Assembly: GCF_021117425.1 (NCBI RefSeq)
Contig: NZ_CP088298.1
Coordinates: forward strand, 1,984,001 to 2,048,000
Source of the DNA: Brevibacterium zhoupengii
GTDB lineage: Bacteria; Actinomycetota; Actinomycetes; Actinomycetales; Brevibacteriaceae
Direction: 5' to 3'
Length of the DNA stretch: 64,000 bases
Shown here: piece after piece, positions 4,257 to 48,998 of the stretch
Layout: the number at the start of each line of letters is the position of its first letter
Numbering within the stretch: the stretch's first letter is position 1
The notes under the pieces: generated by a model
The model's input: only the letters and a program-made list of their open reading frames with translations
Database searches by the model: none
What the model was told of the DNA's origin: nothing
Translations under genes and position numbers: made by a program

Positions 4257-4745
4257 TCAGCGGCCCAGAGCCTTCGAAATCTTCTTCAGCTTGCGGTTGA
4301 GGACGAAGATGCGCACGGATCCGATGATGCCGGCGATGAAGATTCCGCCGATCGCGGCGAAGAGCATGGCAACGCCCAGCGGCAGCTGGAACTGCCAACC
4401 GAAGTACTGGAAGTCGGCGGGGACGTTGTTCTGCAGGATGAAGATGAGGAGGAGTACGACGATGGCGGCGCCGAGGATGAGGGATGCCCACATTCCGGCC
4501 GACATGCCGGAGCCTCCCTTGAGCTGTGACAGGTCCGCATCTTTGCCTGCAGGAGTCGGCTCCTGGCGCTGCTCAGCCTCGGTCTGTTGCGCGGGTTCGA
4601 TGCGCTGTGTCGGATCCACCTGCTGAGTCGGTGCGACCTCGCGACTGTTGCCGGTCGCCGGATCTTCGTCACCGAGCACGGACTGCGTCTCGGCCAGCAG
4701 CTCGTCGGGCGTCTGTGATTCGCCACGTGGGTCTTGAGTACTCAT
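4257..4745 (-). CDS. LapA-domain (DUF1049) membrane protein
   Basis: The 162-residue protein has a hydrophilic, Gln/Thr/Pro-rich N-terminal half (about residues 1-75). This is followed by two membrane helices (about 83-104 and 118-143) separated by the LapA-domain stretch FILQNNVPADFQYFGWQFQL, with a basic tail NRKLKKISKALG. LapA-domain proteins in Gram-negatives assist lipopolysaccharide assembly. In actinobacteria, which lack LPS, the role is unknown. The ATG at 4745 lies inside a perfect palindrome and is preceded by TATGAT (4757-4752) at six bases, so the gene may have its own leaderless promoter as well as readthrough from icd. Confidence 0.85.
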   Translation of the reverse strand: MSTQDPRGESQTPDELLAETQSVLGDEDPATGNSREVAPTQQVDPTQRIEPAQQTEAEQRQEPTPAGKDADLSQLKGGSGMSAGMWASLILGAAIVVLLLIFILQNNVPADFQYFGWQFQLPLGVAMLFAAIGGIFIAGIIGSVRIFVLNRKLKKISKALGR

Positions 4746-4777
4746 GCGCCCATCATAGTCGCTGATGGGCGCATGAG
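4741..4777. repeat. Perfect 15-bp palindrome over the LapA-gene start
   Basis: CTCATGCGCCCATCA (4741-4755) is exactly complementary to 4763-4777, with a 7-base centre (TAGTCGC). One arm contains the start codon of the LapA-domain gene and half of its putative -10 box. As DNA it could be an operator. In RNA read through from icd it would form a 15-bp stem masking the start codon. There is no U-run after it, so it is not a classic terminator. Confidence 0.85.
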
Positions 4778-4846
4778 TGTGGTGTTGCGGCCTCTGACCT
4801 GAAGAAGTGAGATCAGAGACGAGCGTTGGTCAGATCAGTTCTGAGA

Positions 4847-7075
4847 TCAGACCTTTGCGCTCAGGGTGGAGATGATCTCGTTGAGCGTGGCCGAAGGGCG
4901 CATGGCCGAGTCGAGCTTGGCCTCCTCCGGGTAGTAGTAGCCGCCCAGGTCGACCGGGCTGCCCTGGACCTCGAGGAGTTCAGCTGAGATCTTCTCAGCG
5001 TTGGTCTCCAGAGCTTCGGCAACCGGCTTGATGGCCTCGGACAGCGGTTCGTCTGTCGTCTGCTCGGCGAGGTTCTGCGCCCAGTAGAGGGTCAGGAAGA
5101 AGTGGCTGCCGCGGTTGTCGATCTCGCCGACCTTGCGCGAAGGCGACTTGTTCTCTTCGAGGAACTTGCCGGTCGCTGCATCGAGCGTATCGGCGAGCAC
5201 ACCGGCACGGGCGTTGCCGTGGACGTTGAACTCATGACGGAACGATTCAGCCAAGGCGAGGAACTCACCGAGTGAGTCCCAGCGCAGGTGGTTCTCTTCC
5301 ACCAGCTGCTGAACGTGCTTCGGTGCCGAACCACCGGCACCGGTTTCGAACAGACCGCCACCGGCGATGAGCGGAACCACGGAGAGCATCTTCGCTGAGG
5401 TGCCCAGTTCCAGGATCGGGAACAGGTCGGTGTTGTAGTCGCGCAGCACGTTGCCGGTCACCGAGATGGTGTCCTTGCCCTGACGAATGCGATCGATTGA
5501 GAACTGAGTCGCCTCAACCGGGTTCATGATGCGGATATCGAGACCCTCGGTGTCGTGATCGCCGAGGTATGCCTCGACCTTGGCCCGCAGGTTGCGGTCG
5601 TGGGCGCGGGTCTCATCGAGCCAGAACACGGCCGGGGTCTCTGAGAGACGGGCGCGGGTGACGGCCAGCTTGACCCAGTCACGGACCGGGATGTCCTTGG
5701 TCTGGCAGGCGCGCCAGATGTCACCGGCGGCGACCTTGTGGGACAGGATGACCTCACCGGCGGAGTTGACGACCTCGACGACGCCGTCCTGGGCGATCTC
5801 GAAGGTCTTGTCGTGGCTGCCGTATTCCTCGGCCTTCTGTGCCATGAGTCCGACGTTGGGGACGGTGCCCATCGTGGTCGGGTCGAAGGCACCGTTGGCG
5901 CGGCAGTCCTCGATCACGGTCTGGTAGACACCGGCGTAGGAGGAGTCGGGGATGACTGCCAGGGCGTCCTGGGTTGCGTCGTCCTTGTTCCACATCTTGC
6001 CGCCGACGCGGATCATCGCGGGCATCGAGGCATCGACGATCACGTCGGAGGGCACGTGCAGGTTCGTGATTCCCTTGTCGGAGTTGACCATGGCCAAGGA
6101 GGGGCCCTCGGCGATGCCCTTCTCGATTCCGTCCTTGACGCCCTTGGCCACATCGGCCGGGAGGGTGTCGAGTCCGCCGAGGATGGCGGCCAGTCCGTTG
6201 TCGGAGGTCAGGCCCGCCTCGGCGAGGGCAGCACCGTATTCGGCGTAGACCTCGGGGAAGAATGCTTCGATGACGTGGCCGAAGAGAATCGGGTCGGAGA
6301 CCTTCATCATGGTCGCCTTGAGGTGGACGGAGAAGAGGATTCCCTCCTCCTTGGCGCGTACGATCTGCGCCTTGAGGAACTTGTGGAGTTCGGCGACATC
6401 CATCTTGGTGGCGTCGATGACCTCATCGGCGAGGACGGGCAGCGATTCCTTGAGGACAACGGTCTCGCCCGAGGCGGGACGCAGACGGATCTGCAGGGTG
6501 TCATCGGCTGGGATGACGACTGACTTCTCGTTGTCGCGGAAGTCACCGGCAGCCATGGTGGCCACATTGGTCTTCGAATCAGCGGACCAGTCACCCATCG
6601 AGTGCGGGTGGGCCTTCGCGAAGTTCTTCACGGCCTGCGGGGCACGACGATCGGAGTTGCCCTCACGCAGGACGGGGTTGACGGCTGAGCCCTTGACCTT
6701 GTCATAGCGAGCCTTGGCGTCGCGTTCCTCATCGGTCGATGGCTCGTCCGGGTAGTCGGGCAGTTCGTAGCCCTGTGACTGCAGCTCGGCGATGGTGGCC
6801 TTGAGCTGGGGGACGGATGCCGAGATGTTGGGCAGCTTGATGATATTGGCTTCTGGCTTCTTGGCCAGCTCGCCCAGTTCCGCCAGAGAGTCAGCGACCT
6901 GCTGGTCTGCAGGAAGGCGGTCGGTGAACTGCGTCAGCACACGCGCGGCCAGAGAGATGTCGCGGGTCTCGACCTCGACGCCCGCCGAGGTGGCGAAGGC
7001 TTCGATGATCGGCTTGAGCGAGTACGTCGCCAGAAGAGGCGCTTCATCGGTGCGCGTATAAATGATTTTGGCCAT
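4847..7075 (-). CDS. icd: NADP-dependent isocitrate dehydrogenase, monomeric type
   Basis: This TCA-cycle enzyme oxidises isocitrate to 2-oxoglutarate and makes NADPH. At 742 residues it matches the monomeric IDH-II family found in corynebacteria and relatives. The N-terminus ([19 protein letters not shown]), [31 protein letters not shown] and the C-terminal [19 protein letters not shown] are all characteristic. It is divergent from the thymidine kinase gene across a 161-bp spacer. GGAGTAG nine bases before the ATG is the ribosome-binding site. An imperfect hairpin overlaps the stop codon (about 4825-4855), followed by the perfect palindrome before the next gene. Confidence 0.97.
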
Positions 7076-7236
7076 GGTGATGGACTACTCCACATCGTCT
7101 CGGGGTTTGACCTCACCATCCTACCGTTGACCCGGATGCGCTCAGCTTCCCGGTAGGGTTCTGTTTCGTCACACACAACAGGACACCCATCACGAACAAC
7201 AGCGAAATCATCACGAACGACTCAGAGAGGACGAAG

Positions 7237-11478: not shown

Positions 11479-12135
11479 ATGACGAAGACCATTGAGACCG
11501 AACACGTCGTCATCCGCAGCATCGCGGTGTCCGACATGGCCAACAACGTCTACCTCATCACGGCCAAGGAGTCGGGGGCACAGGTGCTCATCGATGCCGC
11601 CGACGATGCTGACGCGATCACAGCACTGATCGCCTCCGGTGGCGAAGACACCTCCGCGGAACCGATCCTGGAGGCGATCATCACGACACACCAGCATTGG
11701 GATCATATTCGGGCACTGCCGGCCACCTCGGCGGCGTTCCCTGATGCGATGACGATCGCCGGCAGCGCCGATGCTGAGGCGATCACCTCGGCCGAAGGGG
11801 TCGAGATCGCTCGCTCCGTCGACCACCTCGACGTCGGCGACTTCGGAGGGTTCGTCCTGCAGGCGATCGGCCTGCGCGGGCACACGCCCGGCTCGATCGC
11901 TCTGCTGCTGCGCGATGGGGGAGAGACCATCCTGTTCTCCGGTGATTCTCTGTTCCCCGGGGGACCGGGAAAGACTTGGAGCCCGCAGGACTTCACCTCA
12001 CTCATGGGCGACCTGGAAGAGCGCGTCTTCGACCAGCTGCCCGACGAGACCCGAGTGCTGCCCGGACACGGTGATGCCACCACATTGGGCGAGGAGCGCC
12101 CGAAGCTGAGCGAATGGCGTGAACGCGGCTGGTGA
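11479..12135 (+). CDS. Metallo-beta-lactamase-fold hydrolase
   Basis: This 218-residue metallohydrolase is close in layout to glyoxalase II-like proteins. Metal ligands are visible: TTHQHWDH (the HxHxDH motif, about residues 72-79), HTPGS (third ligand), SGDSLF (bridging Asp) and LPGHGDATT near the C-terminus. Start ATG 11479 is chosen because the N-terminal beta-strand begins shortly after it; the upstream open frame lies within the OYE gene. The distance from the previous stop suggests coupling, with no strong ribosome-binding site. It may hydrolyse a thioester or lactone produced by the neighbouring enzymes (inference). Confidence 0.88.
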   Translation: MTKTIETEHVVIRSIAVSDMANNVYLITAKESGAQVLIDAADDADAITALIASGGEDTSAEPILEAIITTHQHWDHIRALPATSAAFPDAMTIAGSADAEAITSAEGVEIARSVDHLDVGDFGGFVLQAIGLRGHTPGSIALLLRDGGETILFSGDSLFPGGPGKTWSPQDFTSLMGDLEERVFDQLPDETRVLPGHGDATTLGEERPKLSEWRERGW

Positions 12136-48947: not shown

Positions 48948-48998
48948 CGTGAATAGGTTCTGGGCCCGGTGATGTACCGGGCCCAGAACCTATTCACG
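48948..48998. terminator. Perfect 23-bp-stem bidirectional terminator
   Basis: Bases 48948-48970 are exactly complementary to 48976-48998, with a 5-base loop (GATGT). It lies between the convergent ferritin-like and DUF3107 genes. CACCG/CGGTG at 49007-49021 makes a second small hairpin. Confidence 0.93.

Follow-up and report, generated by a model that had tools for sequence, protein, structure and literature searches.

In the window, i.e., the whole 64-kb stretch of Brevibacterium zhoupengii DNA that was analysed (chromosome positions 1984001-2048000), the minus strand carries, in this order, the monomeric isocitrate dehydrogenase gene icd, lapA and a gene for a phosphopantetheinyl transferase (Table 1). 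The N-terminus of LapA, MSTQDPRG, is conserved among relatives from the ATG at position 4745, and the nearest named relative in the comparison set, B. aurantiacum ATCC 9175, has a LapA that is 98% identical. No Shine-Dalgarno sequence is found at the lapA start and the distance between the TATGAT box and the ATG is that of leaderless genes, hence the prediction that the lapA mRNA is leaderless; such mRNAs make up about 33% of the mRNAs of Corynebacterium glutamicum (PMC3890552). The site is missing from the output of a sigma-70/terminator scan, as it has neither a consensus -35 element nor a U tract, and an Rfam search for known RNA families, such as riboswitches and attenuators, gave only matches below their gathering scores. 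The icd-lapA locus shows no sign of a transposase or mobile element.

Between the two genes, about 70 nt past the icd ORF, the minus strand reads ACTCATGCGCCCATCA-GCGACTA-TGATGGGCGCATGAGT, which counts as a GC-rich stem-loop after a gene. The initial annotation described a perfect palindrome with 15-bp arms at 4741-4777; the perfection is borne out, and the arms are actually 16 bp long. It also placed the ATG and part of the TATGAT box in one arm, and the right arm indeed comprises TGAT of the box, the six-base spacer, the ATG and codon 2; with respect to the predicted lapA promoter, the dyad spans about -33 to +6. The 45-nt region with the hairpin folds at -31.0 kcal/mol, and the z-score for a 171-nt stretch containing it is -3.9. 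In the folded minus-strand RNA the full 16-bp stem is formed with the AUG paired, so the suggestion that the start codon would be buried in read-through transcripts of icd agrees with the modelling (predicted stem of -31 kcal/mol). The companion suggestion, that a leaderless transcript escapes the stem, likewise agrees with the geometry: the left arm is present only in RNA coming from upstream and is untranscribed in the predicted leaderless lapA mRNA, which, starting at the ATG, cannot form the stem. The eight-base tail 3' of the stem, ACTCAAGA, has a single T.

Table 1. Features of the icd-lapA junction (window coordinates) and copies of a repeated palindrome in other Brevibacterium sequences (coordinates of the sequence named)
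Feature	Coordinates	Strand	Evidence or remark
lapA, LapA-domain membrane protein, 162 aa, predicted leaderless	4257..4745	(-)	LapA_dom PF06305, E 1e-10
icd, monomeric isocitrate dehydrogenase, upstream gene transcribed towards the hairpin	4847..7075	(-)	
-10 box TATGAT, 6 nt before the lapA ATG	4752..4757	(-)	
Weak imperfect hairpin after icd, -13.8 kcal/mol	4790..4820	(-)	folding
Perfect hairpin, 16-bp arms and 7-nt loop	4740..4778	(-)	-31.0 kcal/mol for the 45-nt region
Left (5') arm ACTCATGCGCCCATCA	4763..4778	(-)	covaries with the right arm in relatives
Loop GCGACTA	4756..4762	(-)	
Right (3') arm TGATGGGCGCATGAGT; carries most of the -10 box, the spacer and lapA codons 1-2	4740..4755	(-)	
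Repeated palindrome copies	L117:2066-2109; L118:1947-1990, 7042-7085; L119:1306-1349, 11516-11559		
Repeated palindrome copies, continued	L120:1258-1300; L121:1066-1108; L122:1609-1651		

Perfect hairpins with arms of at least 14 bp and a loop of 3-12 nt did not arise in any of 20 first-order simulations of the window, and the window itself contains three. As background, the window was combined with twenty 20-kb segments taken at regular intervals along the genome, 464 kb in all or roughly a tenth of it, and 18 hairpins of this class were present; 17 of them are intergenic, located mostly just after gene ends and many between converging genes, and most are without a U tract. Judging by this frequency and intergenic placement, long perfect hairpins are a normal gene-end feature in this genome. 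Among the 18, the lapA hairpin alone encloses a candidate leaderless start, defined as the ATG or GTG of an ORF of at least 80 aa with TANNNT just upstream, and none of the other 17 overlaps a following gene's -10 box and start codon. One hairpin considered as a second start-covering case (L110:4936-4976) was rejected, being without a -10 box and having a 118-aa ORF that is poorly supported as a gene. A covariance model constructed from the relatives gave one match in the B. zhoupengii genome, the lapA hairpin, so the search for further copies proposed in the initial annotation returned this site only. Elsewhere in the window, a 23-bp perfect hairpin with a loop of 5 nt (48948-48998) stands between the end of a plus-strand gene and a minus-strand ORF and is likely a bidirectional terminator. 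Perfect hairpins of 14-25 bp with a U-poor 3' side are common between genes in the genome sample (L097-L116), which suggests that U-poor hairpins are the usual terminators or 3'-end structures of the Brevibacterium genome.

Only one clade of 37 Brevibacterium genomes, supported at 100/99 in the icd tree, has the palindrome, which is located between icd and lapA wherever present; the icd-lapA order is found in all 37, and lapA adjoins icd in nearly all Brevibacterium genomes that have lapA. The loop is 7 nt long in 36 of the 37 genomes, mostly with the pattern GCNNNTA, the exception being a decayed copy in L079. Across the clade the arms are 16 or 17 bp, their lengths mostly changing jointly, and the central pairs are swapped together (GCGCCC/GGGCGC, GGGCCC/GGGCCC, GGGGCC/GGCCCC and GCTCCCC/GGGGAGC); the flank upstream of the palindrome varies freely between groups. 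The -10 box, as TATGAT or TAGGAT, and the ATG are retained in 37/37 genomes, and every intact copy has the start codon inside the stem. MAFFT misplaced the one-base difference in arm length, and for this reason the rows were padded by hand before pair counting, the 16-base arms receiving an N at pair 5, and a second, independent count was made in Python; the covariance-search alignments, which mixed both strands of the palindrome, were left out of the pair counting.

Thirteen of the 37 genomes have a separate strong hairpin between icd and the palindrome, namely, 12 of the epidermidis/linens group and L079, the genome matching Brevibacterium sp. W7.2 (L060). These hairpins (-28.7 to -51.2 kcal/mol, e.g., GAAAGAGTCCCGGCAG...CTGCCGGGACTCTTTC), whose strength served as a proxy for terminator activity, were gained twice independently, once in a single 12-genome clade and once at a tip (L079). 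The remaining 24 genomes have nothing beyond -15.2 kcal/mol upstream, and the 13/24 split is without overlap in upstream-hairpin strength; the weak hairpin that follows icd in the window is not comparable with the separate ones. In all 24 genomes without a separate hairpin, the palindrome folds at -26.6 kcal/mol or stronger, 97.2% of the pair cells are standard, five pairs have substitutions in both arms, and 0/500 shuffles came up to the observed covariation score. The palindromes of the 13 other genomes range from -11.7 to -32.8 kcal/mol, and their covariation is gone, the score being reached by 109/500 shuffles (10 distinct rows, L079 omitted). A parsimony count over the icd tree, restricted to the 13 core pairs (2-14), gives 0 losses over 1.68 substitutions per site without a separate hairpin vs 16 over 0.39 with one; the naive binomial p-value of 2e-12 for this difference overstates independence, since the loss events cluster in few lineages. 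Losses of several pairs in one lineage are partly dependent on each other, and the natural experiment is carried by only two hairpin gains. The same difference is seen in a pair of sister species: L077, without a separate hairpin, has a stem free of mismatches that even contains a G-C flip compensated in the other arm, and L079, with one, has lost the stem. A strong palindrome is retained despite the separate hairpin in L024, L026, L027, L030, L031 and L033. The -10 box and the ATG persist while the pairing decays and remain in all 37 genomes; thus, the pairing is dispensable for the lapA promoter.

This comparative pattern shows base pairing that is conserved and covaries and that, in the sampled clade, stays free of loss only as long as icd and lapA have no other strong hairpin between them, and it indicates that selection on the pairing relaxes where a separate terminator-like hairpin stands between the two genes. 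Selection on the pairing would thus track whether icd RNA can reach lapA, which places the function in the read-through RNA, and there is a good probability that the palindrome functions in RNA arriving from icd, as a hairpin at the icd/lapA boundary. It probably keeps the icd and lapA messages apart. Transcription of icd would sometimes continue beyond the icd stop codon, the read-through RNA would fold the 16-17 bp stem, and the icd transcript would then be stopped or trimmed and/or the lapA AUG hidden from translation; lapA itself would normally be made from its own leaderless mRNA, which, with its 5' end at the AUG and no left arm, would be open. Termination or 3'-end formation and start-codon locking may both operate and are not separable by comparative data. 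The start-codon lock put forward in the initial annotation is one plausible element, and a termination role, absent from that annotation, explains the same data; its further proposal of a built-in switch between read-through and own-promoter expression was not upheld, the comparative pattern fitting a guard or gene boundary instead.

Termination alone and locking alone are mutually exclusive sub-versions of a function in icd RNA, and the probability assigned to that function overlaps with those assigned to them. A hairpin acting only as a U-poor, 'I-shaped' terminator or 3'-end stabiliser of icd, its overlap with the lapA start being an accident of compact spacing with no role in translation, has a considerable probability, if somewhat below even. 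Core-pair loss is restricted to genomes with a separate terminator-like hairpin, the perfect U-poor hairpins frequent between genes of the sampled genome lie mostly after gene ends, and U-lacking, highly structured 3' ends have been mapped in Streptomyces clavuligerus (PMC8269248); these may be either I-shaped terminators or Rho-dependent ends after trimming (PMC8269248), I-shaped, U-poor terminators of GC-rich Actinobacteria being the subject of Mitra et al. 2009 (cited in PMC8269248). The lapA hairpin is like the I-shaped terminators in its long, GC-rich and perfect stem at a gene end with few U following, but unlike them it overlaps the lapA -10 box and start codon. Compared with a classical intrinsic (Rho-independent) terminator, it has the GC-rich stem but not the U-rich tract (ACTCAAGA, 1 T in 8), and this tail with its single T speaks against termination as the only role, as does the overlap with promoter and start, which is kept in 24/24 genomes although several have more than 100 nt of room at the junction (L074, 109 nt; L034, 122 nt; L076, 132 nt; L078, 149 nt). 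The opposite extreme, a lock of the phage T4 gene e type that does not end transcription and only keeps read-through RNA untranslated, seems rather unlikely on its own: read-through RNA without a Shine-Dalgarno sequence at lapA may be poorly translated regardless, and the other strong intergenic hairpins of the genome, mostly after genes, suggest a role in termination or at 3' ends. Nevertheless, the start codon lies in the stem of every intact copy, the stem cannot form in the leaderless transcript, one T in the eight bases 3' of the stem argues against classical termination, and the same layout has a precedent in T4 (PMC3014915). In the leader of T4 gene e (lysozyme), and also of soc, 49 and I-TevI, the start is locked in long early transcripts, and the late promoter, located in the 5' strand of the structure, gives RNA that lacks this strand and is translated (PMC3014915). 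Similarly, the hairpin would cover the lapA start in RNA from upstream promoters, and the predicted lapA promoter is located within the hairpin region and would give RNA without the 5' strand. Unlike gene e, lapA is a resident bacterial gene with an mRNA predicted to be leaderless, all 16-17 bp of the stem are paired without mismatch, and the hairpin may double as the terminator of the upstream gene; the regulation in T4 is temporal, and the lapA pattern fits a guard, without known regulation. On the best reading of the data, the boundary hairpin would apply the logic of T4 gene e in a leaderless bacterial gene. Transposase genes of insertion sequences (IS10 and others) are protected by a fold-back, in which RNA coming in from outside hides the start and the gene's own promoter avoids the structure. 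By analogy, incoming RNA would hide the lapA start and the lapA promoter would avoid the structure, but lapA, unlike genes of the IS10 type, is resident, syntenic with icd across the clade and without a transposase at the locus.

Promoter need, a protein operator and mutational correction explain the conserved pairing poorly. A dimeric repressor binding the dyad over the lapA promoter would find it in the usual repressor position, about -33 to +6; this DNA operator is nonetheless very improbable, as the matched changes between 16- and 17-bp arms move the half-sites by 2 bp, the central bases swap as complementary pairs, the palindrome is present in the genome in a single copy, and its decay tracks an upstream hairpin that is irrelevant to an operator. 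The fixed half-site sequence and spacing across species expected of operators are not found here (arms of 16-17 bp, covarying centre). Equally slight, or slighter still, is the probability that the pairing has no function and that template-switch (quasi-palindrome) correction, copying one arm to the other, keeps the palindrome perfect without selection. Such correction could yield both the compensatory and the matched length changes, but it should also act in the lineages with a separate hairpin, where the palindrome decays (16 vs 0 core losses), and the long perfect stems elsewhere in the sampled genome are mainly intergenic. A role against antisense RNA running from lapA to icd is also conceivable, since hairpins work in either direction, but the nearest converging gene end is more than 1 kb distant.

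If the palindrome does act as a boundary hairpin in icd RNA, about 40 bp might fuse an icd terminator, the lapA promoter and a start-codon lock, perhaps as a general, unrecognised solution in Actinobacteria; this extension is put forward tentatively and is rather doubtful at present. Such a fusion is possible in leaderless genes because the promoter touches the start codon, and, if true, one hairpin would end one message and mute read-through without being part of the mRNA that the gene itself produces. A literature search, in which subscription journals were thinly covered, found no report of a terminator fused to a leaderless start. The shielding of leaderless genes from the RNA of the preceding gene is little discussed, and the leaderless layout itself could supply the shield, in a compact arrangement. 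Evolution provides a control, as the pairing decays and the promoter and start stay where another stop-like hairpin appears, and the intact and decayed copies in sister species constitute a natural test bed. The locus is also a warning that a hairpin at a start codon need not mean a riboswitch or an operator.

A palindrome of 43-44 nt (ACACATGCGCCCCGTCAGGC-loop-GCCTGACGGGGCGCATGTGT) recurs in several Brevibacterium genomes, frequently as two copies 5-17 kb from each other (Table 1), and in L118 genes of IS3-type and IS110-type transposases are located near it. The likeness of its arms to those of the lapA palindrome is probably due to convergence. Palindromes of other species with similar arms (CATGCGCCCCGTCAGG...), found as covariance-model matches, were set aside as a different, partly repeated element, in some cases near transposase genes; a common origin with them is not claimed, since the lapA arms in the species that branch early (CATGGGCCC) resemble them less.

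In the outgroups, i.e., more distant Brevibacterium, lapA often looks leaderless, with TACGCT, TAGACT or TAGGGT six bases before the ATG, and most of the icd-lapA junctions contain a strong separate hairpin after icd. L094 and L095, which represent small-genome species, have icd-lapA gaps of 4 and 8 nt and a Shine-Dalgarno-like stretch, without a hairpin, and their icd and lapA look operon-like rather than lapA a leaderless unit; the comparison of L094 and L095 with the other genomes shows an apparent change in the mode of lapA expression within the genus. In L080 (G048:C37:22101-22547) the match to lapA is split into residues 1-40 and 62-162, and tblastn also gave one alignment covering residues 1-162; this gene likely has a shortened low-complexity middle rather than being broken.
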